From Flavobacteriaceae bacterium (GTDB lineage Bacteria > Bacteroidota > Bacteroidia > Flavobacteriales > Flavobacteriaceae), in contig JAQWGN010000004.1 in assembly GCA_029238215.1 (NCBI GenBank), positions 1 to 53,926 on the forward strand: 53,926 nucleotides of DNA. The letters run 5' to 3'. The notes beneath the pieces were generated by a model. It was not told the origin of the DNA, did not search any database, and saw only the letters and a list, made by a program, of their open reading frames with translations. Made by a program: the position numbers and the translations under genes. Shown one piece after another: positions 2,660-12,910 of the stretch (position 1 is its first letter; every line of letters starts with the position of its first letter).

Positions 2660-3943
2660 CTAAAAGTTTTTGTCGAATTTTTCTTGGATTGATGAAAGTG
2701 AAAGGTTTCCTATACTTCCAATATGTGTATGAGTAAGCCCTTTTGGAGCACTAAATGTTCCATCTTCAACCTGTTGTCCAACTTGCTTATACGCATCCCT
2801 AAAAGGCACACCTTGCTGTACCAATTCATTAAGAGCATCAACAGTAAAGGCATACGTATATTTATCATCCTCCATGATGTTCTTATGAATTACAATCTCT
2901 TTTATACTGCTATTTAAAATAGTAAGACAGTCTTTAAGACTATCGATACCTTCTAACATTTTTCCTTTAAACAATTGCATATCACGGTGATAGCCACTAG
3001 GTAGATTTTGCCCTAACAGTGCGAAATCATTAGCAAGCCCTTGAATTAAGGCACATTTCCCTCTGATTAATTCAAAAATATCTGGGTTTTTCTTGTGTGG
3101 CATAATACTCGACCCTGTTGTAAGGTGGTCAGGAAAATGTATAAAATTAAAATTCTGACTCATATACAAGCAAACATCCATAGAAAAACGGCCAAGCGTA
3201 GCGGCCAATGAGCCCATAGCACCGGCAGTAATGCGTTCTGTTTTTCCACGACCCATTTGTGCGGCAACAGGATTTATTTTAAGGGTGTCAAAACCCAATG
3301 CTTTTGTTGTTTGTGCTCTATCTATTTGGAATGAACTGCCATAGCCCGCAGCACTACCCAAAGGATTCTGATCACAAATAGTATATGCAGCATTAATAAG
3401 TGTGATGTCGTCTATTAATGATTCGGCATATGCTGAAAACCACATGCCAAATGATGACGGCATGGCAACTTGTAAGTGAGTATAGCCAGGTAGCAATTCA
3501 TCCTTGTGTGTTTCAGCCAATGTTAACCATGTGTCAAACAATTCTTTAGTAAGGGATTTTATTTCTAAAATTTCATCCTTCAACAATAACTGCATGGCAG
3601 TAAGTACTTGATCGTTTCTAGAGCGTGCAGTATGTATTTTTTTACCTACATCTCCTAAATGTTCAGTAAGTAAGTGTTCAATTTTAGAATGGATGTCCTC
3701 AAAATCTTGTTCTATACTAAAATCATCTTCCAATACGAGTTTCATAATCGCATCAAGCGCATCACATAATTGTTTTGATTCTTCGTTTGTAAGCAAGCCT
3801 ACACTTGCCAACATTTGCGCATGGGCTTTAGAAGCGACTACATCATAGGGAGCTAAACGTACATCCCAAAGCCTGTCATCTCCAACAGTAAATCTGTCTA
3901 CATCTTCAGTGACTGATGTTTTTTTCTTTTGCCAGAGTTTCAT
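2660..3943 (-). CDS. argH: Argininosuccinate lyase
   Basis: Splits argininosuccinate into arginine and fumarate, the last step of arginine synthesis, in the cytoplasm. The 427-residue protein has the fumarase/aspartase superfamily signature GSSIMPHKKNPD at residues 277-288 (carrying the catalytic Ser loop), the TARSRNDQ substrate-binding motif at 105-112 and the conserved catalytic His in YTHLQ at 154-158. It is somewhat shorter than the usual 450-460 residues but has all signature blocks. Its ATG overlaps the argE stop by 4 bases, indicating translational coupling. It is the last clear arginine enzyme of the operon. Confidence 0.96.
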   Translation of the reverse strand: MKLWQKKKTSVTEDVDRFTVGDDRLWDVRLAPYDVVASKAHAQMLASVGLLTNEESKQLCDALDAIMKLVLEDDFSIEQDFEDIHSKIEHLLTEHLGDVGKKIHTARSRNDQVLTAMQLLLKDEILEIKSLTKELFDTWLTLAETHKDELLPGYTHLQVAMPSSFGMWFSAYAESLIDDITLINAAYTICDQNPLGSAAGYGSSFQIDRAQTTKALGFDTLKINPVAAQMGRGKTERITAGAMGSLAATLGRFSMDVCLYMSQNFNFIHFPDHLTTGSSIMPHKKNPDIFELIRGKCALIQGLANDFALLGQNLPSGYHRDMQLFKGKMLEGIDSLKDCLTILNSSIKEIVIHKNIMEDDKYTYAFTVDALNELVQQGVPFRDAYKQVGQQVEDGTFSAPKGLTHTHIGSIGNLSLSSIQEKFDKNF

Positions 3944-5001
3944 AATGCTTGTTTTAAAATGGATATATACAATGGAATTGCTTCTTCTAATTCGTGTACA
4001 TAGATAAATTCATCTGCAGTATGGGATCTCAATGAATCTCCAGGACCTAGCTTAAGGGAATGACATGACAGTACCGCCTGATCTGATAGGGTAGGTGAGC
4101 CATACGTCTTTCTATCCTTTGCAATGCCAGCTTTTACCAAAGCATGGTCAATTGGAATAGAGGAGGAGTTTAATCGAAGTGAGCGTGCTTTGACTTCACA
4201 TGGTGCTTGTTGTACGATAGCACTAATTTCTTCATTGGTGTACATATCATTAACACGTACATCAATAACAAGTTTAACAGCCGCAGGAACAGCATTGTGT
4301 TGTTTTCCTGCTTGTACCTGTGTAACGGTTAGTTTAACAGGGCCAAGCGCGTCTGAAACTCGATCAAAATCTAGTTTTTGAAACCAATCTATAACTCCAC
4401 CAATTTTATAAATAGGGTTATCCTCATTTGGGTGTGCAGCATGACTAGCCGTACCTTGAATTGTTGCATCGAATACAACCAATCCTTTTTCCGCAACAGC
4501 CAAGTGCATTTGTGTAGGTTCCCCCACAATAGCCGTATCAATTTTTGGCAGTGTTTTAAGTAAACTATTCAAGCCATTTGGCCCGGAAGTTTCTTCTTCA
4601 GCAGTAGCCGCAACAACCAAATTATAGGCCATATCTTCTTGCTCATAGAAATATACAAATGTTGCTAGCAAACAGACCAAGGCACCACCAGCGTCATTGC
4701 TTCCAAGCCCATAAAGCTTTCCATCTTCAATGGCCGACTTATATGGATTGCGTGTATAACCACTATTGGGATATACCGTGTCATGGTGTGAGTTGAGTAG
4801 CAAATAAGGTTTTGCAGGGTCTTCATGCTTATTTACAGCATAAATATTGTTTTGTTGTTGGTTACAAACTACTCCGTGCTGTTCTAACCATGCCTTAATA
4901 TGAGCAGCTGTTTGGTCTTCACTGCTCGAAAGGGAGGGCGTATCAATCAGCTGTTGAAGGAGTGTTATGGCTTCTTGTTGAAGTTGCTTGATTCGATTCA
5001 T
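3940..5001 (-). CDS. argE: M20 metallopeptidase, acyl-citrulline/acyl-ornithine deacylase
   Basis: A 353-residue M20-family zinc deacylase. Metal ligands are visible: His72/Asp74 region (SHHDTV), Asp103 (SNDAGG) and the Glu cluster 135-137 (AEEETSG). In organisms with an ArgF' transcarbamylase such as the one encoded just upstream, this enzyme removes the acyl group from N-acyl-citrulline rather than from N-acetylornithine; that substrate is inferred from the neighbours. Overlaps of 4 bases with both argB and argH place it firmly inside the operon. A generic M20 peptidase is possible by sequence alone, but the context makes ArgE by far the best call. Confidence 0.9.
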   Translation of the reverse strand: MNRIKQLQQEAITLLQQLIDTPSLSSSEDQTAAHIKAWLEQHGVVCNQQQNNIYAVNKHEDPAKPYLLLNSHHDTVYPNSGYTRNPYKSAIEDGKLYGLGSNDAGGALVCLLATFVYFYEQEDMAYNLVVAATAEEETSGPNGLNSLLKTLPKIDTAIVGEPTQMHLAVAEKGLVVFDATIQGTASHAAHPNEDNPIYKIGGVIDWFQKLDFDRVSDALGPVKLTVTQVQAGKQHNAVPAAVKLVIDVRVNDMYTNEEISAIVQQAPCEVKARSLRLNSSSIPIDHALVKAGIAKDRKTYGSPTLSDQAVLSCHSLKLGPGDSLRSHTADEFIYVHELEEAIPLYISILKQAL

Positions 5002-5774
5002 TTTAATACGGTTTTGATTGCGTTTTTATTAATCAACGCATCTACGTTACTGATGATTACATCACCTACACCATTTTTACGTGCGTCAAAGCCATTGCTT
5101 AACTTTGGAACCATCCCTTGATGAATAATTTTTTTATCAATCAATTTGTTCATTTCAATTTCTGTTAGCGAAGATATTACATCTGTTGGATTTGAAATGT
5201 CATGCAATACTCCTGCATGCTCAAAACAATAAAATAGACGAACATCAAAGATTGCATTCATTGCAATAGCAACTTGCGCAGCAATTGTATCAGCATTGGT
5301 GTTGAGGAGTTGTCCATTTTTATCATGCGTAATTGCACATAAAACAGGAACAAAGCCTTGCGTAATCAATGAGTCAAATACTCCAGTATTCACATGAATA
5401 ATATCGCCAACCAATCCATAGTCAATGTCTGTTACTGGGCGTTTTAGGGACTGGATACAATTTCCATCCGCTCCACTTAATCCCAACGCATTTACGTCTT
5501 GGTCTTGTAGCGCTGCTATGATTTTCTTATTCGAAAGCCCAGCGTAGCTCATCACAGCGACATCAAGCATATCAACATCAGTAATACGCCTTCCATGAAT
5601 CATTTTTGGTGTTAGCCCCAATTTTTTGGCAAGCCCAGTAGCGTGTCTTCCTCCGCCATGAATTAAAATTTTAGCTCCGTCTAAAGAAGCAAAAGCGGAT
5701 AGTACTTTATCTAATGCTTTAGAATCATTAACCAAGTGCCCACCTACTTTAACGATATGTAGGTTCTTTTTCAC
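4998..5774 (-). CDS. argB: N-acetylglutamate (acylglutamate) kinase
   Basis: A 258-residue amino acid kinase that phosphorylates N-acylglutamate. Seen: the N-terminal KVGGHLV phosphate loop, the GGGRHATGLAKKLG substrate loop at about residues 40-54, and NTNADTIAAQVA near residue 185, characteristic of acetylglutamate kinases. The usual N-terminal arginine-sensing helix of feedback-inhibited ArgB proteins is absent: the protein begins only about five residues before the first beta strand. This suggests weak or no allosteric inhibition (inference). It overlaps argF' and argE by 4 bases each. Confidence 0.94.
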   Translation of the reverse strand: MKKNLHIVKVGGHLVNDSKALDKVLSAFASLDGAKILIHGGGRHATGLAKKLGLTPKMIHGRRITDVDMLDVAVMSYAGLSNKKIIAALQDQDVNALGLSGADGNCIQSLKRPVTDIDYGLVGDIIHVNTGVFDSLITQGFVPVLCAITHDKNGQLLNTNADTIAAQVAIAMNAIFDVRLFYCFEHAGVLHDISNPTDVISSLTEIEMNKLIDKKIIHQGMVPKLSNGFDARKNGVGDVIISNVDALINKNAIKTVLK

Positions 5775-6712
5775 GATAACAAATTTTTAAGCACAGCTGC
5801 TGCTGCATAGGTTCTGTTATTTGCTTGTTCAATGACCTTTGAAGTTGGATGGTCCAGGACGCCGTCTGACACAACTACATTTCTGCGTATAGGCAGGCAG
5901 TGCATAAAAGCTGCATTATTTGTCAACTTCATTTTTTCAGGTGTTAGCATCCAAGTATTATCTGTTCTAAGGATTTGTCCATACTGTTCGTATGAAGACC
6001 AGTTTTTGGCATATACAACATCTGCATCCTTTAACGCCTCATCTTGATTATGAATGACAGGGATGTTTTTTGTAATTCGCGGATCTAAATCATAACCCTT
6101 AGGGTTTGCAATAATAAAATCAGCATCCAAGTGCTGCATCATTCTTGTAAAGGAGTTTCCAACGGCATGTGGTAAAGCCTTAGGATGTGGTGCCCATGTT
6201 AGTACAACTTTTGGTTTTGCAGGAAGTGATAATTCAGAAAGTGTCAACGCATCTGCAAGTGCTTGTAATGGATGTGCTGTTGCACTCTCCATATTAAGTA
6301 TTGGCACTGTAGCGTGTTCAATAAATCGTTGCAAGACTTGCTCTGACTCATCTTTGTCTTTGTCCGTAAGTGTGGCAAAAGCTCGTATGCCCACAACATC
6401 GCAATACTGTGACACTACTTGAGCCGCTTCTTTTACATGTTCTGAACGAAGTCCCTCCATGATGGTTTCGTTTTCGTATTCAATTGCCCAAGCTTCATTG
6501 CTAAAATTCATGACCATGACATCCATTCCCAACAAACGCCCTGCTTTTTGGGTGCTAAGTCGGGTTCTTAAACTAGGATTAAAAAATAAAAGTCCAAGAG
6601 TTTTACGTTTTCCAATAGTTTCAAACTGATATGGATCTGCTTTAATTTTCTGTGCAAGTTTTACTTGTGCATCAAAGCTTGTTAAGTCATCAAGTGTTAA
6701 AAATTGTTTCAT
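5771..6712 (-). CDS. argF': N-acyl-L-ornithine carbamoyltransferase (ArgF')
   Basis: A 313-residue aspartate/ornithine carbamoyltransferase family enzyme. It has the carbamoyl phosphate motif SLRTRLSTQ (47-55), HPLQ (147-150) and HCLP (271-274). Its closest family pattern is the Bacteroidota/Xanthomonas type that carbamoylates N-acylated ornithine, consistent with the acyl pathway genes around it and the absence of any plain argF. In the family, Pro90 (Bacteroides, succinyl) or Glu92 (Xanthomonas, acetyl) in the segment before Glu-His controls acyl specificity. Here the aligned residue is Ser90 (LRSEHV), so acetyl versus succinyl cannot be decided from sequence. It overlaps argD and argB by 4 bases. 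Confidence 0.92.
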   Translation of the reverse strand: MKQFLTLDDLTSFDAQVKLAQKIKADPYQFETIGKRKTLGLLFFNPSLRTRLSTQKAGRLLGMDVMVMNFSNEAWAIEYENETIMEGLRSEHVKEAAQVVSQYCDVVGIRAFATLTDKDKDESEQVLQRFIEHATVPILNMESATAHPLQALADALTLSELSLPAKPKVVLTWAPHPKALPHAVGNSFTRMMQHLDADFIIANPKGYDLDPRITKNIPVIHNQDEALKDADVVYAKNWSSYEQYGQILRTDNTWMLTPEKMKLTNNAAFMHCLPIRRNVVVSDGVLDHPTSKVIEQANNRTYAAAAVLKNLLS

Positions 6713-7833
6713 AGTTCTTGTTCTAAAGCCTTGAAAAACTGGTTAAAATGTTTTTGTTCAATGGTAAGCGGTGGTAAAATTCGCAACAATTTTTTGTTGC
6801 TGCTTCCTCCAGTAAAAATACCGTGATTATAAATAAGCCTTTTTCGTAGTTCACCAACTTCAAAGTCAAATTCAAGTCCAAGCATCAAGCCTTTTCCCTT
6901 AATTAATTTAACTCCTTTTAGTGTTTTACTTCTCTCCATAAATGCTTCACCAAGTGCTTCAGCGTGCGTAGTCAATGATTTCTTTTTTAACACTTCCAAT
7001 ACGGCAAGACTCGCTTGACACGCCAAGTGATTTCCTCCAAAAGTAGTTCCAAGCATCCCATACCATGGCTTGATTTTTGGATGTGCTAATATTCCACCAA
7101 CAGGAAATCCATTACCCATTCCTTTTGCCATAGAAATGATATCTGGTGTTACACCATAGTGTTGAAAAGCAAAAAACTTTCCGGATCGTCCAAACCCTGA
7201 CTGTACCTCATCGGCAATAAAGCAAGTGTTGGTTTCATTACAGCTTTTTTCAACATGCTTCATGAACTCATGCGTTGGCATATCGAGTCCCCCAACTCCT
7301 TGAATAGCTTCGATAATAACCGCACATACATCACCTTTTTTTAGCGTTTCTATTAGCGCTTTTTCATCTCCGAACTCTAAAAACTCAACGTCTTGTTGTG
7401 CGTTTAATGGCGCTATTATTTTTGGTGTGTCTGTTGCAGCAACTGCAGCACTTGTTCGTCCGTGAAACGAATTTTTAAAAGCAACTATTTTGGATTTACC
7501 TGTATAAAACGATGCTAGTTTAAGAGCGTTTTCATTTGCTTCTGCTCCAGAACTACACATAAATAATTGATACCCTTCACATCCAGACTGCGCTTCAATT
7601 TCATTTGCTAGTTGCACTTGCAAGGGATTATGAATCGCATTTGAATAAAAACCTATTCTAGAAAGTTGTTTTCGTAACCTTCTTTTATACACCGGATGCT
7701 GATGCCCAATACTAATCACAGCATGGCCACCATACAGGTCCAAGTATTTTTTACCATCAGCACCATAAACATACATTCCTTTAGCACGTACGGGAGTAAC
7801 ATCATAAAGCGGGTAAACATCAAATAATGGCAT
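6709..7833 (-). CDS. argD: N-acyl-ornithine aminotransferase
   Basis: A 374-residue class III PLP aminotransferase converting N-acylglutamate semialdehyde to N-acylornithine. The PLP-binding Asp is in ADEVQSG (Asp208), the Schiff-base Lys is Lys237 (SMAKGMGNG), and the SSGAEANENALKLA block (94-107) binds PLP phosphate. The ATG is 2 bases from the proC stop and the end overlaps argF' by 4 bases. Family members can also act on ornithine itself; with proC next door, a dual arginine/proline role is possible but not shown. Confidence 0.92.
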   Translation of the reverse strand: MPLFDVYPLYDVTPVRAKGMYVYGADGKKYLDLYGGHAVISIGHQHPVYKRRLRKQLSRIGFYSNAIHNPLQVQLANEIEAQSGCEGYQLFMCSSGAEANENALKLASFYTGKSKIVAFKNSFHGRTSAAVAATDTPKIIAPLNAQQDVEFLEFGDEKALIETLKKGDVCAVIIEAIQGVGGLDMPTHEFMKHVEKSCNETNTCFIADEVQSGFGRSGKFFAFQHYGVTPDIISMAKGMGNGFPVGGILAHPKIKPWYGMLGTTFGGNHLACQASLAVLEVLKKKSLTTHAEALGEAFMERSKTLKGVKLIKGKGLMLGLEFDFEVGELRKRLIYNHGIFTGGSSNKKLLRILPPLTIEQKHFNQFFKALEQEL

Positions 7834-7835
7834 AA

Positions 7836-8630
7836 TTAATCTTGTGCTATTTCATTAATTTTTTGAAATGATGCCACGATTCCCTGAATTAAGGATGAGC
7901 TCAAACCTTGGTGTTCCATCTCGTTAAGCCCTTCAATAGTACATCCTCTTGGCGTGGTCACTTTATCGATTTCTTCTTCTGGGTGTGCGCCAGTTTCAAT
8001 TAATAACGATGCCGCTCCCATAGCAGTATACATAGACATTTTCATTGCTTCATTGGCATCAAAACCTAGCTGTACACCTCCTTGAGTAGTTGCTCTAATA
8101 AGTCGCATCCAAAATGCGATTCCAGAAGCGCAAATTACTGTAGCAGCACGCATGTGTTGTTCTTCAATCACAATACTAGTTCCAAGCCCATTAAAAATTG
8201 CCTCAGCTACAGGCATGCGTTCTTTACCCTTTTTATTTGCGCACAAGCAAGTCATCGACTTCCCGACTGAAATGGCTGTATTTGGCATTGAACGAATCAA
8301 GAAGGTATCAGGACCTACGACTTTTTCCATTTTTGACAATGAAAATCCAGTAACTGTAGAAATCAGTACGTGGTTTTCATGAAGACTGTCTTTTATTTCT
8401 GTAAGAACAGTGGTCAATTGTCTTGGTTGTACTGCCAAAATAATAATGTCAGATTTCTCAACAGCTTCTTTGTTGTCAGTTGTGATATACGTATTCGCAT
8501 ACTCGGTCCAAGTCGTAATACTATCAAGTGATCGACGCGTAAGGTAGAGCTGCGTGATGCTATTGTTGGTTATTAAGCCCCGTCCAATGCTTAACCCTAA
8601 ATTTCCGGCTCCTATAATGGCTATTTTCAT
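7836..8630 (-). CDS. proC: Pyrroline-5-carboxylate reductase
   Basis: Makes proline from pyrroline-5-carboxylate with NAD(P)H. The 264-residue protein starts with the Rossmann motif IAIIGAGNLGLSIG and has the C-terminal dimer/substrate signature around TPRGCTIEGLNEME (about residues 229-242), standard for ProC. It sits between argC and argD with 2-base gaps on both sides, so it is a true member of the arginine operon. This links proline output to arginine control, probably through the shared glutamate-semialdehyde branch. No proA or proB is in the window. Confidence 0.94.
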   Translation of the reverse strand: MKIAIIGAGNLGLSIGRGLITNNSITQLYLTRRSLDSITTWTEYANTYITTDNKEAVEKSDIIILAVQPRQLTTVLTEIKDSLHENHVLISTVTGFSLSKMEKVVGPDTFLIRSMPNTAISVGKSMTCLCANKKGKERMPVAEAIFNGLGTSIVIEEQHMRAATVICASGIAFWMRLIRATTQGGVQLGFDANEAMKMSMYTAMGAASLLIETGAHPEEEIDKVTTPRGCTIEGLNEMEHQGLSSSLIQGIVASFQKINEIAQD

Positions 8631-8632
8631 AG

Positions 8633-9619
8633 TTAAAATGATATTGATTTTAATTGTAATCCTGTCGTTTCTTCCCAGCCAAACATAATATTCATATTTT
8701 GAATCGCTTGACCTGAAGCCCCTTTTATTAAATTATCGATAATACTTGTAACAAGCAGTTGTCCTTCATGCAAATGCAGGTGCAAAAGACACCTGTTTGT
8801 TCCCACAACTTGCTTTAACGCTAAGCTAGAACGACTTACAAAAGTAAACTTACTGTTTTTGTAATAGTCATCATAAAGCCCATATGCTTCGTCGATAGTT
8901 CCGTTAAAGGCAGTATATGCCGTTGCAAAAATACCACGAGTAAAGTTTCCGCGTATAGGCAAAAAATGAAGCTTAGCAGCAGTACCTTGAGCTTGCGCTA
9001 ATGTTTCTCCAATTTCACCCAAGTGTTGATGTACAAAAGGCTTGTAGTACGAGATGTTGTTGTTTCTCCAACTAAAATGACCTGTTGCAGAAGGGACTGC
9101 ACCTGCACCCGTACTTCCAGTAATTGCATTAACATGAACTTCGTTTTCAAGTTTACTTGATGCAGCAAGGGGAAGTAGCGCCAATTGTATTGCTGTGGCA
9201 AAACATCCTGGGTTTGCTATCGCTTGTGCTGAAAGAATATGCTTATGATTAACTTCTGGTAGTCCATAAACGTATGATCTGCCTAAAAAGTGACGGTCTG
9301 CTGTTAATCTAAAATCATTGCTTAAATCAATAATTTTAGTATTGTCATTAATTACGTTTTCATGTAAAAATGTAGCCGAGTTTCCATGACCCATACACAG
9401 AAATAACACATCTACATCTGGATTTAACTCACTTGAAAAAGATTGATCAAGTACTCCCAATAAGTCAGGATGTGTTTCGAAAACAGGTTTTCCAGCACGA
9501 GTGGTACTGTATATGAAATCTATGGTTACGTTTGGATGGTTTACTAATAGGCGTAACAACTCACCTCCAGTATATCCTGCACCTCCTACTACTCCAATTT
9601 TAATTTTATTTATTGACAT
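8633..9619 (-). CDS. argC: N-acetyl-gamma-glutamyl-phosphate reductase
   Basis: Reduces N-acylglutamyl phosphate to the semialdehyde with NADPH. I take the ATG at 9619, giving 328 residues and opening with KIGVVGGAGYTGGELLRLL, the family's NADPH-binding start. A longer frame to 9712 would add 31 residues lying wholly inside argG and is not supported. The catalytic Cys is Cys139 in ANPGCFATA, and His is in the C-terminal PIRGNFTRG region. The chosen start overlaps argG by 14 bases, and the stop lies 2 bases from proC. Confidence 0.94.
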   Translation of the reverse strand: MSINKIKIGVVGGAGYTGGELLRLLVNHPNVTIDFIYSTTRAGKPVFETHPDLLGVLDQSFSSELNPDVDVLFLCMGHGNSATFLHENVINDNTKIIDLSNDFRLTADRHFLGRSYVYGLPEVNHKHILSAQAIANPGCFATAIQLALLPLAASSKLENEVHVNAITGSTGAGAVPSATGHFSWRNNNISYYKPFVHQHLGEIGETLAQAQGTAAKLHFLPIRGNFTRGIFATAYTAFNGTIDEAYGLYDDYYKNSKFTFVSRSSLALKQVVGTNRCLLHLHLHEGQLLVTSIIDNLIKGASGQAIQNMNIMFGWEETTGLQLKSISF

Positions 9620-10787
9620 GCTGATAAATTTTTCCAGCATTTGCTGAAAGTTTAATAAATCCTTTTGCTTCATCTGCACTCCATGCTTCGTTAGCCTCCC
9701 CATAAGTGCCAAAACTGTTGTCCATCAAATCATATTCTGATTCAATACCATCGAGGCTAAAACGATAGGGGTGAAGGGTAACATAAACCGATCCAGTTAC
9801 TGTTCGTTGGCTACTCTGTAAAAGTTGCTCAAAGTCTCGCATTACAGGGTCTAAGTATTGTCCTTCGTGAAGCATCATTCCATAGTATGTTCCTATGGAG
9901 TCCTTATGATGCAACTGCCATTTGCTTAAGGTGTGTTTCTCTAACAAGTGATGCGCTTTAATGATAACTAAGGCAGCAGCAGCTTCAAACCCAACTCTTC
10001 CTTTTATTCCAATAATAGTATCCCCAACATGGATATCACGGCCAATAGCAAAGGCCGCTGCACGTTCCTGTAACTCTTGAATGGCTTCAACAGGGCTATA
10101 GTTTTTACTATCTACTCCAATAAGTTCTCCATTTTCAAAACGAAGGCAAAGTGTTTCTGGTTTCGTTTTAGTACATGGGCTTGGATAGGCTGTTTCTGGA
10201 AGGGGTTTTTGTGATTTTAAAGTTTCGCTTCCGCCAACAGAAGTACCCCACAGTCCCTTATTTATAGAATACTGGGCTTTTTCCCAAGACCAATCTACCC
10301 CATGTTTTTTAAGGTATTCAATTTCGTCTTCTCTCGAAAGCTTTTGATCGCGAATGGGTGTGATAATTTCTATTTCTGGTGCTAGGGTTTGAAAAATTAA
10401 ATCAAAACGAACTTGATCGTTTCCAGCTCCTGTACTTCCATGAGCAATAGCTGTTGCATTAATTTCTTTTGCATAGTTTACAATCGCTACCGCTTGTGTA
10501 ACTCTTTCAGCACTAACCGATAATGGGTAGGTACTGTTTTTTAATACATTACCAAAAACCAAATATTTTACGATGTCTTGGTAGAATGTTTCTACAGCCT
10601 CAATACTTTTGTAAGAATGTGCTCCTAAAGACAGTGCTTTTTTCTCAAGTGCTGTTATTTCTTTAGCATCAAACCCTCCAGTGTTAACACTTACGGCATG
10701 CACTTCATAGCTGTGCTGGCTAAGTGACTTTACACAATACGAGGTGTCGAGGCCTCCGCTATAGGCTAAAACTAATTTTTGTTTCAT
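9606..10787 (-). CDS. argG: Argininosuccinate synthase
   Basis: Joins citrulline and aspartate with ATP. The 393-residue protein has the N-type ATP pyrophosphatase loop AYSGGLDTSYC (SGGLDTS at 10-16) and the GSTGAGNDQVRFD motif near residue 120 that binds aspartate/citrulline. The first ATG overlaps the stop of the GNAT gene by 4 bases (ATGA), and its 3' end overlaps argC. Placing argG near the operon front is typical of Flavobacteriaceae. Confidence 0.96.
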   Translation of the reverse strand: MKQKLVLAYSGGLDTSYCVKSLSQHSYEVHAVSVNTGGFDAKEITALEKKALSLGAHSYKSIEAVETFYQDIVKYLVFGNVLKNSTYPLSVSAERVTQAVAIVNYAKEINATAIAHGSTGAGNDQVRFDLIFQTLAPEIEIITPIRDQKLSREDEIEYLKKHGVDWSWEKAQYSINKGLWGTSVGGSETLKSQKPLPETAYPSPCTKTKPETLCLRFENGELIGVDSKNYSPVEAIQELQERAAAFAIGRDIHVGDTIIGIKGRVGFEAAAALVIIKAHHLLEKHTLSKWQLHHKDSIGTYYGMMLHEGQYLDPVMRDFEQLLQSSQRTVTGSVYVTLHPYRFSLDGIESEYDLMDNSFGTYGEANEAWSADEAKGFIKLSANAGKIYQHVNK

Positions 10788-11374
10788 TTTTTTTCTCGTT
10801 TAAAAGCTTTTTTAAAAGATTGAATTCTACCAACAATGCCATTGCTGTTTTTGGCAGCTGGATCATAAAGCATTCCAGTACACAAGCACATAGTTCGATT
10901 AGTTCTTGTTAATACATCGTAATTTTTACATGTTTGACAACCTTTCCAAAACGCTGGATCATCGGTAAGCTGTGAAAAAGTCACAGGCTTATATCCCAGG
11001 TCGTAATTAATTTTCATTACGGGCAAGCCAGTTGTTATTCCAAATATTTTGGCATTTGGATATTTTTCTTTTGTGTAGGCAAAAATTTGTGCTTTTATTT
11101 TTTTTGCCAATCCAATTCCTCTAAATGCAGGAGCAACAATTAATCCTGAGTGCGCAACATATTTTTCGTGCCCCCATGCTTCGATGTAACAAAAACCAGC
11201 AAAGGTTTCGCCATCAAGAGCTATTATGGCATTACCCGACTCTATCTTTTTCTGAACATATTCAGGAGTACGACGAGCAATTCCTGTTCCTCGTACTTGT
11301 GCAGAAGAAGAAATCGTTTCTGAAATAATGGACGCATACTTTACGTGAATGCGTTTAGCAACTTGGATTTCCAT
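10784..11374 (-). CDS. GNAT acyltransferase, candidate N-acylglutamate synthase
   Basis: The first structural gene of the arginine operon, 196 residues. It has a GNAT fold with the acyl-CoA pyrophosphate loop at 85-90 (RGIGLA) after the strand HSGLIVAPAF. The operon has no argA or argJ homologue, so this enzyme is the obvious candidate to acylate glutamate; that is inference from position. Unusually for a GNAT it carries a Cys cluster near the C-terminus (Cys146, Cys149, Cys163, Cys165: C-x2-C, then C-x-C), which could bind zinc. The ATG at 11374 follows the attenuator-like leader by about 80 bases, and the stop overlaps argG by 4 bases. Confidence 0.8.
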   Translation of the reverse strand: MEIQVAKRIHVKYASIISETISSSAQVRGTGIARRTPEYVQKKIESGNAIIALDGETFAGFCYIEAWGHEKYVAHSGLIVAPAFRGIGLAKKIKAQIFAYTKEKYPNAKIFGITTGLPVMKINYDLGYKPVTFSQLTDDPAFWKGCQTCKNYDVLTRTNRTMCLCTGMLYDPAAKNSNGIVGRIQSFKKAFKREKK

Positions 11375-11485
11375 GATAAATTAAAAAAATGATTGTACAG
11401 ATAAATGACGAGGGAGGAAACCGGACACACCTTGGTTCCATAGAAGAAGTGATCACCCCAAGGGGCGACGAAAACGTGGTGTGTT
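11375..11485 (-). promoter_or_regulatory. Candidate arginine attenuator RNA
   Basis: In the leader transcript, CACACC (11483-11478, just before the Arg codons) can pair with GGTGTG (11431-11426). CCTTGG (11463-11458, overlapping the end of the leader peptide) can pair with CCAAGG (11435-11430). The two right-hand arms share bases 11431-11430, so the helices compete. A ribosome waiting at the Arg codons (11476-11465) would decide between them. No stable hairpin precedes the only U-rich run (around 11384-11390), so the output is more likely Rho-dependent termination or start-codon access than intrinsic termination. Confidence 0.55.
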
Positions 11486-11515
11486 TAAAAACGGTAAAAT
11501 ATTACTTACAGTCAT
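11453..11515 (-). CDS. Arginine leader peptide (candidate)
   Basis: A 20-codon reading frame, too short for usual gene calling, located between the arg promoter and the first gene. It starts with ATG at 11515 and stops with TGA at 11455-11453. Codons 14-17 read Arg-Phe-Arg-Arg, and the peptide ends TPRFRRPLG. Three Arg in four codons just before a region of alternative RNA pairing is the classic layout of a ribosome-stalling leader peptide. The ATG lies only 4 bases after the -7 box, so the message would be leaderless. No homologue comparison was possible, so this remains a prediction. Confidence 0.65.
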   Translation of the reverse strand: MTVSNILPFLNTPRFRRPLG

Positions 11516-11519
11516 GCTG

Positions 11520-11552
11520 CAAATATATATTTTTTTTCACTGTTATGACAAT
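11520..11552 (-). promoter_or_regulatory. arg operon promoter
   Basis: On the minus strand, TATATTTG (plus-strand 11520-11527) fits the Bacteroidota -7 consensus TAnnTTTG. ATTG (11549-11552) lies 21 bases upstream and fits the -33 element. Transcription should begin at or next to the leader-peptide ATG at 11515. Confidence 0.7.
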
Positions 11553-11569
11553 TTCCTTCCTCATTTGCC

Positions 11570-11577
11570 TAATTTTG
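11570..11577 (+). promoter_or_regulatory. pabB operon -7 box
   Basis: TAATTTTG matches TAnnTTTG, 19 bases before the TTG start of pabB. It is arranged back to back with the arg promoter, whose -33 element ends 18 bases away. A clear -33 element is not seen. Confidence 0.5.
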
Positions 11578-11596
11578 TTTCAAATGATCACTCTCT

Positions 11597-12910
11597 TTGG
11601 TAAATCGCACAAAAAAAGTATTTAACGTTACTGGTATTTCAGATATCAAACAGCGCTTGTTTTCATGGGCAAAGGATTCTTCCCCTGTGTCGTGGTATGA
11701 TTCCAATGAGTACCCTCACCAACCACGTGAATACGATGCGATTTTGGCCGTTGGTTTAGCACATAAAAACGCACAACTTTCTACCCAAAAGGAACTTGCT
11801 CAACATTTGGGTAAGGATTGGTTATTCGGGTTTTTTAGTTATGAATATGCACAGGACTGGGAATGTGTTTCTCCAACAAACCCATTGCACCTAGATGTAC
11901 CATCACTTCACTTTTTTATACCTGACAAAATTTGGCTTCTAAAAGGAGATACCCTCATAGCACTATACAGCGGAGTTGACGATCCAGCTGCAGATTTTAT
12001 ACAACTAAAAAACACCACGCTCACAAACCAAAATCAACTTCAAGCAATTGATTTATCTCCTCGTATTTCTAGAAATCAATATGTGAAGAATGCTAAGGCT
12101 CTTCAAGAACATATTTTTCGAGGAGACATATATGAAGTTAATTATTGCGTGGAATGGTATGCTGAAAATGTTAACATTCACCCATCTTCATTGTTTGTAG
12201 CACTTAATCAAATTGCAAAAACACCCTATGCAGCCTATGTAAACATTGATGATGTTCACTTGATGTGTGCTTCGCCTGAACGGTTTTTACAACGCCGTGG
12301 AAATTCATTAAAATCGCAACCCATAAAAGGAACTGCTGCACGTCAAGTTGATCCAATATTGGATGTTGCTGCCGCACAACGTTTAAAAGATGATAGTAAA
12401 GAACGTTCTGAAAATATTATGATTACTGATTTAGTTCGCAATGATTTGTCACGAGTAGCCCAGAAAGGATCAGTAGCTGTTGAAGAGCAATGTGTTGTCT
12501 ATCCTTTTGCTCAGGTACATCAAATGATTTCTACCATCACCGCTACTTGTGACAGAAATACTTCTTCGCTTGATGTTATAAATGCCTGCTTCCCAATGGG
12601 AAGTATGACCGGAGCGCCAAAACAACGTGCTATGGAGTTAATTAATCAATATGAAAATAGTCAGCGCGGATTGTATAGTGGAGCTGTTGGATATTTCGCT
12701 CCTAATGGGGACTTTGATTTTAATGTCGTTATTCGAAGCTTGGTGTATGATGCTAAGCAACGTTATATCTCTGCTCATGTGGGAAGTGCCCTTACCGCAG
12801 CGGCAGATGTGGAAAAAGAATATGAAGAATGTCAGCTTAAAGTAAAAGCGATTAAGCAATTATTGGCAAATCAAGCTGTTAGCCTAGAGTTTTATGGATC
12901 CAAAGTTTAG
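11597..12910 (+). CDS. pabB: Aminodeoxychorismate synthase component I
   Basis: A 437-residue chorismate-binding enzyme that aminates chorismate for folate synthesis. The PabB-type Lys of PIKGT (Lys244, motif 242-246), which forms the covalent intermediate in PabB but is absent from anthranilate synthase, is present. GSMTGAPK (335-342) and the ITDLVRNDLSRV block (276-287) are also there. The start is TTG at 11597: a stop lies four codons upstream (11585-11587) and no ATG occurs before conserved sequence. No glutamine amidotransferase partner (pabA) is seen nearby. It overlaps tilS by 17 bases. Confidence 0.93.
   Translation: MVNRTKKVFNVTGISDIKQRLFSWAKDSSPVSWYDSNEYPHQPREYDAILAVGLAHKNAQLSTQKELAQHLGKDWLFGFFSYEYAQDWECVSPTNPLHLDVPSLHFFIPDKIWLLKGDTLIALYSGVDDPAADFIQLKNTTLTNQNQLQAIDLSPRISRNQYVKNAKALQEHIFRGDIYEVNYCVEWYAENVNIHPSSLFVALNQIAKTPYAAYVNIDDVHLMCASPERFLQRRGNSLKSQPIKGTAARQVDPILDVAAAQRLKDDSKERSENIMITDLVRNDLSRVAQKGSVAVEEQCVVYPFAQVHQMISTITATCDRNTSSLDVINACFPMGSMTGAPKQRAMELINQYENSQRGLYSGAVGYFAPNGDFDFNVVIRSLVYDAKQRYISAHVGSALTAAADVEKEYEECQLKVKAIKQLLANQAVSLEFYGSKV

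Follow-up and report, generated by a model that had tools for sequence, protein, structure and literature searches.

The arg operon and its leader region

In the 53,926-nt stretch of Flavobacteriaceae DNA that was analysed here as a whole (the window), genes for arginine biosynthesis follow one another on the minus strand in the order GNAT-argG-argC-proC-argD-argF'-argB-argE-argH, and a short frame with arginine codons clustered at its end precedes them. The coordinates of all these elements, together with those of two hairpins named P1 and P2, are collected in Table 1.

Table 1. Elements of the arg leader and of the arg operon, in the order of transcription (positions are those of the window)
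Feature	Position	Strand	Basis or remark
TTG of the -33 element	11549..11551	minus	21 nt before the -7 box
-7 box TATATTTG	11520..11527	minus	read from the sequence
Predicted transcription start, the A of the leader ATG (leaderless)	11515	minus	suggested by the 4-5 nt spacing
Leader ORF MTVSNILPFLNTPRFRRPLG with stop codon	11453..11515	minus	20 codons; 4 nt after TATATTTG; conserved frame
Arg codon 14 (CGT)	11474..11476	minus	read from the sequence
Arg codons 16-17 (CGT CGC), terminal Arg pair	11465..11470	minus	read from the sequence
Hairpin P1, GTCGCCC-CTTG-GGGTGAT, spanning the last Arg codon and the stop codon	11452..11469	minus	alignment, conservation
Hairpin P2, GGAACCAAGGTGTGTCCGGTTTCC	11416..11439	minus	covariation
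P2 apex AGGUGnGUCC (here AGGTGTGTCC)	11423..11432	minus	conserved in relatives
G-poor spacer between P2 and GNAT	11375..11415	minus	2 G and 9 C of 41 nt, read from the sequence
GNAT acetyltransferase, first gene of the operon	10784..11374	minus	PF00583, 24.5 bits over cut-off 20.7; no NCBIfam match
argG	9606..10787	minus	TIGR00032, 274.2 bits over cut-off 268.2
argC	8633..9619	minus	TIGR01850, 303.5 bits over cut-off 233.6; start chosen at 9619, longest ORF from 9712
proC	7836..8630	minus	TIGR00112, 206.7 bits over cut-off 196.75
argD-like aminotransferase	6709..7833	minus	TIGR00707, 355.4 bits, below cut-off 410.05
N-acyl-ornithine carbamoyltransferase (argF'), N-acetylornithine-type	5771..6712	minus	NF003384, 304.6 bits over cut-off 288
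argB	4998..5774	minus	TIGR00761, 171.2 bits over cut-off 151.3
argE/dapE-type deacylase	3940..5001	minus	best matches below curated cut-offs
argH	2660..3943	minus	TIGR00838, 341.3 bits over cut-off 279.5

Where would the transcript of this operon begin? The TTG triplet is what we take, by the -33 motif, to be the upstream promoter element. For the -7 element the consensus is TAnnTTTG (PMC9723704), and in F. johnsoniae candidates with 4-5 nt from the -7 element to the start site were deemed probable promoters (PMC6847099). Because of this spacing, the predicted first nucleotide of the transcript is the A of the ATG that opens the leader; in the same F. johnsoniae study, leaders were longer than 10 nt in 87% of the predicted transcripts (PMC6847099). 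A sequence-only reading of the locus had pointed to the promoter pair and to an ATG 4 nt after the -7 box, which the letters confirm, and had further suggested that the leader would be translated without a 5' UTR; the promoter geometry would put the start codon at, or a few nucleotides from, the predicted end of the transcript. In relatives, the distance from a TAnnTTT[GA] box to the leader start is 4 nt within the genus of the window and mostly 7-8 nt elsewhere. Of 94 loci scanned with a pattern, 80 yielded a box together with a start, the gaps being 4 nt in 12 of them, 7-8 nt in 53, and 5, 6 or 9-12 nt in 8, the outliers being one locus with 26 nt and six with 44 nt, in which the wrong box had been taken and which by eye have ATATTTG followed by 4 nt. 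The scan found no box or start in 14 of the 94, and L042, L046 and L059 among these likewise have ATATTTG and 4 nt when read by eye.

Conservation of the Arg-rich frame

The frame of 20 codons with Arg at codons 14, 16 and 17, which the sequence-only reading had taken for an arginine leader peptide, is indeed there, and it is far beyond chance because it is kept in relatives, has the same box-to-start spacing within the genus and shows a third-codon-position bias. Whether relatives lack this frame or these Arg codons was checked, as the sequence-only reading had asked, and both were found to be conserved. If the codons are counted backwards from the last Arg, which is Arg by construction, Arg occupies the preceding codon in 90 of 94 leaders, the second codon back in 60 and the third in 46. 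Arg makes up 289 of the 1743 residues (16.6%) in 67 distinct leaders whose start lies at most 12 nt from a TAnnTTT[GA] box.

Is this frame read by ribosomes? Over the 10 codons before the last Arg, 29 independent closest pairs of leaders differ 27, 22 and 50 times at codon positions 1, 2 and 3, respectively, and codons with a single change are synonymous in the proportion of 40:27 in frame, whereas the two remaining frames give 14:53 and 8:59. The bias of codon positions and the in-frame excess of synonymous changes together indicate that the frame is selected as protein, i.e. that it is translated. It is also this bias, along with the conservation in Flavobacteriaceae, that supports an Arg leader peptide 5' of the arg operon. 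A leader ORF that is translated and rich in the codon for the regulating amino acid, as his/trp-type attenuators require, is thus present.

The constraint extends to codons other than Arg. Non-Arg codons among the last 10 show synonymous changes in the proportion of 28:17 (expected fraction 0.29), with 12:38 and 8:48 in the other frames, and the first 9 codons, with 17:35 (expected 0.23), are barely constrained (26 pairs in both cases). In 51 thinned leaders, an F.P motif occurs in 20, compared with 7.8 +/- 2.4 in within-peptide shuffles, and F near the end in 41, compared with 29.2 +/- 2.8; patterns with P near the end exceed the shuffles as well. Conservation of non-Arg residues is not expected for a pure codon sensor; the constraint seems to exceed the needs of such a sensor, and a contribution of the nascent chain is possible. 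One may go further and suppose that the leader is a nascent-peptide sensor, in which arginine itself would cause the segment R-x-F-x-P-x-R-R-R-P to halt its ribosome on the stop codon or close to it, and the halted ribosome would set the fate of P1 and P2; arrest at TnaC responds to tryptophan, and that at SpeFL to ornithine. The amino acid-level constraint on the last 10 codons as opposed to the first 9, the excess of F.P and of near-end F, and the many leaders that end exactly in RRP-stop all point in this direction. On the other hand, the C-terminal end is variable (RRPLG-stop, RRPFGGI-stop, RRTFVRA-stop, RRRLLA-stop and more), which speaks against a strict arrest peptide, the within-peptide shuffles leave shared ancestry in place, and an arrest induced by arginine would have to repress a biosynthetic operon, the reverse of what TnaC does. 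We regard such a sensor as unlikely.

Two compatible hairpins, P1 and P2

An alignment of 72 thinned leaders, taken from 93 distinct segments among the 108 of 110 loci having the P2 apex, contains two hairpins. P1 consists of CGCCC, a 4-nt loop and GGGYG and spans the codons for the last Arg and Pro; the stop codon falls in its loop (RRP-stop types) or at its 3' edge (most of the genus of the window). Its core of five pairs is paired in 89.4% of cells in the 72 leaders and is mostly invariant, a single pair showing a double change; therefore, the support for P1 comes from conservation and from compensated variants recognised by eye (L020, L027, L028, L199 and L205). P2, which begins some 15-22 nt 3' of the stop codon's first base (16 in the window), has double changes in all 6 pairs below its two apical G-C pairs, and its arms gave z = -13.3 in a cross-species permutation with 94 leaders, in which they were the positive control. 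RNAalifold, with the alignment as its sole input, returned 3 pairs of the P1 core and 8 pairs of P2. Over the 13 named pairs of P1 and P2, 93.3% of cells pair as against 87.8 +/- 0.5 in shuffles, 7 pairs have double changes as against 3.8 +/- 0.9, and 59 cells are doubly changed as against 22.7 +/- 4.1, each of these being reached in 0 of 500 shuffles, and slid versions of the same pairs score far lower.

The sequence-only reading had placed two competing helices around the Arg codons, CACACC/GGTGTG and CCTTGG/CCAAGG. They exist as matches of letters, but not above chance: among 94 distinct leaders, a perfect 6-mer partner of the apex within the 37 nt that lead up to the terminal Arg run and the joint occurrence of CCTTGG with CCAAGG are each confined to the genome of the window, and folding the leader as a single sequence gives z = -1.04, which 32 of 200 shuffles equal. 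The conserved helices sit elsewhere, as P1 and P2, and the covarying helix that was to be sought across relatives turned out to be P2 rather than either of those named. Do other pairings compete with the two hairpins? P1 and P2 themselves are compatible and not mutually exclusive. Cross-species permutation of 17 other region pairs in 94 leaders gave none below z = -2.5, and three pairs among the 18 tests (leader ORF with the P2 5' arm, z = -2.2; Arg region with the P2 5' arm, z = -2.5; leader ORF with the spacer, z = -2.2) are to be read with the reservation that values near -2.5 can arise from shared ancestry. A helix between the 5' arm of P1 and the apex of P2 (CGCC/GGUG) was discarded: its complementarity reaches z = -1.68, but neither side varies, the adjoining base pair shows no covariation by eye, and L156, L159 and L195 lose the pairing and keep a hairpin. 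The P1 3' arm and the spacer, with z = -0.04, were discarded as partners as well. Since the proposed helices occur in 1 of 94 leaders and no convincing alternative pairing was seen, this is not a textbook terminator/antiterminator switch; mutually exclusive helices of that kind are not found in these leaders. A further hairpin, P0, in the leader before the Arg codons is not claimed for the window, the mean folding z being -1.74 for one clade (55 leaders) and -0.25 for the genus of the window (12 leaders, 2 of them below -1).

The remark of the sequence-only reading that no intrinsic terminator follows the leader holds in general, and none is found before the first gene. The window itself might suggest otherwise: P1 is flagged there as terminator-like by a pattern scan (shuffles 0.2 +/- 0.4). 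This flag, and a T content of 51% between the two hairpins of the leaders, would suit a classical attenuator with P1 as its intrinsic terminator. However, at least 5 T among the 8 nt after P1 are found in just 22 of 92 leaders, the stop codon stands in or at P1 so that a terminating ribosome would cover it, and no antiterminator partner covaries, which makes this arrangement very improbable. By eye, no regular T run lies 3' of P2.

The apex of P2 is another part that is strongly kept. GGTGNG[TC]CC is found 54-68 nt before the GNAT start in 79 of 80 loci, which are the best 80 of 570 relatives and share some genomes with a set of 60 genomes used below, and the 80th (L066) reads GGCGCGTCC. Such a record would fit P2 as the sensor itself, a small aptamer or a protein site built on the AGGUGnGUCC apex, to which the leader ORF would be secondary. 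Against this, the apex is altered in L156, L159, L195 and L205, all of which retain a hairpin and still have an Arg-containing leader, and Rfam has no match at the place, so we think this rather improbable. Rfam covariance models gave sub-threshold matches elsewhere only and none at the leader (positions 10000-12500 of the window, and nine relatives), and a riboswitch, a T-box or another Rfam family was set aside as no curated model matches there. The apex was also rejected as a genome-wide element, AGGTGNGTCC occurring 4 times in the genome and the reversed control pattern 8 times; one copy is that of the arg leader, one lies inside a coding frame and two are on contig C10. Conceivably, the apex might also partner the 3' end of 16S rRNA.

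The spacer before the first gene

Between P2 and GNAT extends a spacer that was measured in 89 leaders; its median length is 47 nt, and none is shorter than 38 nt. In these leaders its C content is 0.199 and its G content 0.052, a C/G ratio of about 4, while ordinary upstream regions of 23 genes in the window have 0.175 and 0.158, respectively; an excess of C over G of at least 5 in 48 nt is also seen in 5 of those 23 regions, and is thus not unique to the spacer. The spacer is less complementary than permuted partners to the P2 5' arm (z = +3.2) and to the GNAT start (z = +2.7), as is the P2 5' arm to the GNAT start (z = +2.3). It looks as if the spacer were kept single-stranded, and therefore the GNAT start does not appear to be sequestered. 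Rho is encoded (TIGR00767, 635.7 bits), and Rho together with a stretch of C over G beyond the leader stop, as in systems of the tnaC or mycobacterial cys type, is present here, although it is a weak feature. The sequence-only reading had suggested Rho, or else access to the GNAT start codon, as the output; of these, Rho may be the likelier.

These numbers bear on the possibility that the ribosome on the leader changes the fold or the decay of the mRNA, and thus translation start or mRNA stability instead of transcription, as with orf34 before speF in Salmonella. That system provides the precedent, in which 2 Arg codons lead to effects on Rho, on folding and on decay by RNase G (PMC6386406), and P2, the best supported structure here, would come immediately 3' of a ribosome that sits on the stop codon. 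But neither the unsequestered look of the GNAT start nor the length of the spacer after P2 fits it well, and we consider control at this level unlikely as well.

Distribution among relatives

How widely is the leader found, and does it follow the operon? The GNAT protein is encoded in 36 of 60 related genomes. A covariance model of P1 and P2, built for genome searches, finds the leader of the window with E = 2e-16, and the next match in the same genome (15.1 bits) falls within a trpC-like gene, on the opposite strand, nothing else being credible. Of 249 genomes of the family, 173 have a match at E<=0.05 and 167 have GNAT at E<=1e-40; a strong match (E<1e-5, by which 16 weaker ones are dropped) is found in 157, and 155 of these have GNAT. 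GNAT without a strong match occurs in 12 of the 167 genomes, a strong match without GNAT in two (G191 and G123), and neither element in 80. Among the matches listed, leader and GNAT lie on the same contig and strand in all 137 place pairs compared, with a median gap of 43 nt (range 34-238; 135 of 137 within 25-120), and the leader adjoins GNAT also in G134 and G162, with gaps of 36 and 39 nt, so that the total is 139 of 139 listed pairs. The leader thus stands directly 5' of its cognate biosynthetic operon, as is the rule for attenuators. In G191 an intact leader stands before another acetyltransferase-like frame, which takes the place of the first gene and has argG behind it; therefore, the leader is tied to the arg operon and not to this GNAT.

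The 16 exceptional GNAT loci, with no match or a weak one, were read by eye. Seven have an Arg-rich frame: L195 (VRRFPFRPLWV-stop), L196 (YPRRP-stop), L197 (RRRIRE-stop), L199 (RSFRPLS-stop), L200 (RRRRCRE-stop), L205 (FRRRLLA-stop) and L207 (YTRR-stop, at a distance of about 150 nt). In L201 one Arg was seen, and in the other eight (L198, L202-L204, L206 and L208-L210) no Arg-rich frame was seen near the gene. The weak primary matches L156, L158 and L159 are diverged arg leaders. Secondary matches of the model were considered as other targets; those read by eye, L160, L161, L166-L170 and L112, show no such leader and were dropped. In other families of the order, an Arg-rich frame precedes GNAT in 6 of 8 loci (L029, L030, L211, L212, L214 and L216) and none was seen before GNAT in L213 and L215. 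By eye, L216, from another family, has a P1-like hairpin. A search over 295 genomes of the class gave matches at E<=0.01 in 36, of which 31 lie outside the family and score at most 24.3 bits; by eye, none of the outside-family matches L179-L183, nor L184 from another family member, is an arg leader. P1 and P2 as modelled look confined to Flavobacteriaceae.

ArgR, which an ArgR regulon presupposes, was searched for with TIGR01529 and found in none of 60 genomes of the order, including that of the window (88% complete), 37 of them being at least 90% complete; the same model recognised ArgR in 9 of 14 controls, one of which is a Bacteroides genome. RNA-based control by arginine would fill this gap, the leader standing in for ArgR.

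How the leader might work

Taking all this together, we think it probable that a translated Arg leader acts in cis to control the whole arg operon, with stalling on the terminal Arg codons and with Rho as the likeliest output, so that arginine synthesis would be turned on as arginine becomes scarce. The life of such a transcript may be pictured as follows. It would begin at, or a few nucleotides before, the leader start, if the promoter geometry is a guide, and ribosomes would load at its 5' end. The frame of 20-30 codons, with its Arg codons clustered at the end, is then translated, as its conservation shows. When Arg-tRNA is scarce, a ribosome would stall on the terminal Arg codons, that is, at the 5' edge of P1, and when arginine is plentiful it would reach the stop codon in or at P1 and depart. 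The position of the last ribosome would decide whether RNA polymerase passes through P2 and the G-poor spacer into GNAT-argG, most likely by way of Rho-dependent termination in the spacer, and P2 might be a pause for RNA polymerase or a signal met by Rho or by the ribosome. The edge of a ribosome lies about 13 nt beyond its A-site, and since the distance from stop codon to P2 is 15-22 nt, neither of the two ribosome positions should melt P2. It is to be noted, as a point against this reading, that a stalled ribosome alone would not shield the spacer from Rho.

A bolder and tentative extension, which we hold to be possible rather than probable, is that the leaderless Arg leader combines a codon sensor with an arrest peptide (R-x-F-x-P-x-RRRP), that it signals to RNA polymerase or Rho through P2 without any terminator/antiterminator switch, and that it might be a family-wide regulator of Flavobacteriales lacking ArgR.

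The cis-acting leader favoured above would give a concrete answer to how arginine is controlled without a recognisable ArgR in a large group of abundant marine bacteria. It also offers a clean model, with a short leader, one operon and many natural variants, in which leaderless leaders and attenuation without a terminator can be studied in a phylum without Shine-Dalgarno initiation, and P1 with P2 makes a searchable RNA element that has no match in Rfam 15.

Comparison with known systems

Ribosome-mediated attenuators of the Yanofsky type control his, trp, leu, ilv, thr and phe operons. The arg leader, too, is short and translated, carries a series of codons for the amino acid that its operon makes, and stands immediately 5' of that operon; it differs in that the amino acid is arginine, the start is predicted to lie at or near the end of the transcript, the two hairpins are compatible, and no terminator/antiterminator pair was found in it. 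Within the Flavobacteriaceae, transcriptomics of F. psychrophilum gave clues for leader peptide attenuation before amino acid operons, and its conserved 5' elements, including those before pheA and hisG, are alike in family and in kind of operon (PMC9723704); the main text of that study names no arginine operon and mentions arginine for cyanophycin only (PMC9723704). The arg leader is very probably a deeply conserved regulator, and in the open-licence literature we found no description of such an element for arg genes.

Comparable systems are found in other phyla. Leaders without a terminator are known before cys genes in Mycobacterium, and these actinobacterial cys leaders share with the arg leader the regulatory codons near the stop codon, the absence of an intrinsic terminator and the suggestion of Rho, while the LEU element of leuA likewise joins a conserved structure with a leader ORF (PMC1262725). 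They serve other amino acids in another phylum, and here P2 is a covarying hairpin, not a pseudoknot with an SD box; before arginine operons of Actinobacteria, that paper reports no conserved RNA structure (PMC1262725). In Streptomyces lividans, the transcript of leuL1 starts at the leader start codon, as is predicted here, and no typical terminator follows, as here, but leuL1 is a leucine leader of Actinobacteria (PMC8079986). A leaderless leader peptide in itself is therefore not new, given this Streptomyces precedent (PMC8079986). The orf34 leader before Salmonella speF is similar in that consecutive Arg codons sense arginine, a hairpin lies just past the stop codon and Rho is involved (PMC6386406). 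Unlike the arg leader, it controls putrescine synthesis, has an SD sequence and a 5' UTR of about 30 nt, and carries its sensing codons at positions 12-13 of 34 rather than at the end (PMC6386406); no sequence kinship between the two is seen. The arg leader would thus work like an attenuator, but without exclusive helices and an intrinsic terminator, and is therefore best described as a variant of the classical kind.

Gene context of the leader

The first gene of the arginine operon, an acetyltransferase gene (GNAT), has no NCBIfam match. Among the genes of the window's operon neither argA nor argJ was seen, and GNAT may therefore supply the N-acylglutamate synthase step. On the other side of the leader, the start of a chorismate-binding (pabB-like) frame and the leader promoter are under 100 nt apart, and therefore one intergenic stretch is common to both promoters.

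Genes flanking the arginine leader
Feature	Coordinates	Strand	Remark
GNAT	10784-11374	-	first gene of the operon
Chorismate-binding (pabB-like) frame	11597-12910	+	divergent from the arginine leader

Other short frames upstream of GNAT

In some Flavobacteriaceae (L021, L022, L196 and L198, loci in relatives' genomes), there is a further short frame rich in Arg, with the pattern M...K-N-K-I-R-P/C-S-S/V-P-...-F/L*, about 210-300 nt 5' of GNAT. In L021, L022 and L196 it sits 5' of the described leader, and could there be a tandem second leader.

Three loci of genus g147 (L202, L203 and L204) have a different conserved frame about 250-330 nt 5' of GNAT, which reads MNKTSLHITSLSRTNRPTTSPEVRML* in L202 with variants, judged by eye, in the other two, and its end is resembled by that of a frame in L208. 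P1+P2, the hairpin over the last Arg codon and that beyond the leader stop, were not seen in this genus, and the g147 frame is possibly a substitute for them.

One match of the P1+P2 model (L184, genome G476) lies in what by eye looks like a CRISPR array, with unique spacers between copies of a repeat of about 36 bases.

Hairpins at or within leader frames

Within the leader frames of one clade (L049-L110), 5' of the Arg codons, there is a hairpin whose sequence is variable and often compensated, for example GAGCAACCTTGCTC and CGGAGTATCCACTCCG. Its mean folding z is -1.74 over 55 leaders of this clade, and in the window's genus it is weak (z = -0.25, 12 leaders). At two loci from another family of the order (L211 and L212), a hairpin AGGCGT...ACGCCT was noticed by eye, in which the Arg codons AGG CGT themselves form the 5' arm; its layout is like that of the Flavobacteriaceae leader, although its sequence is another.
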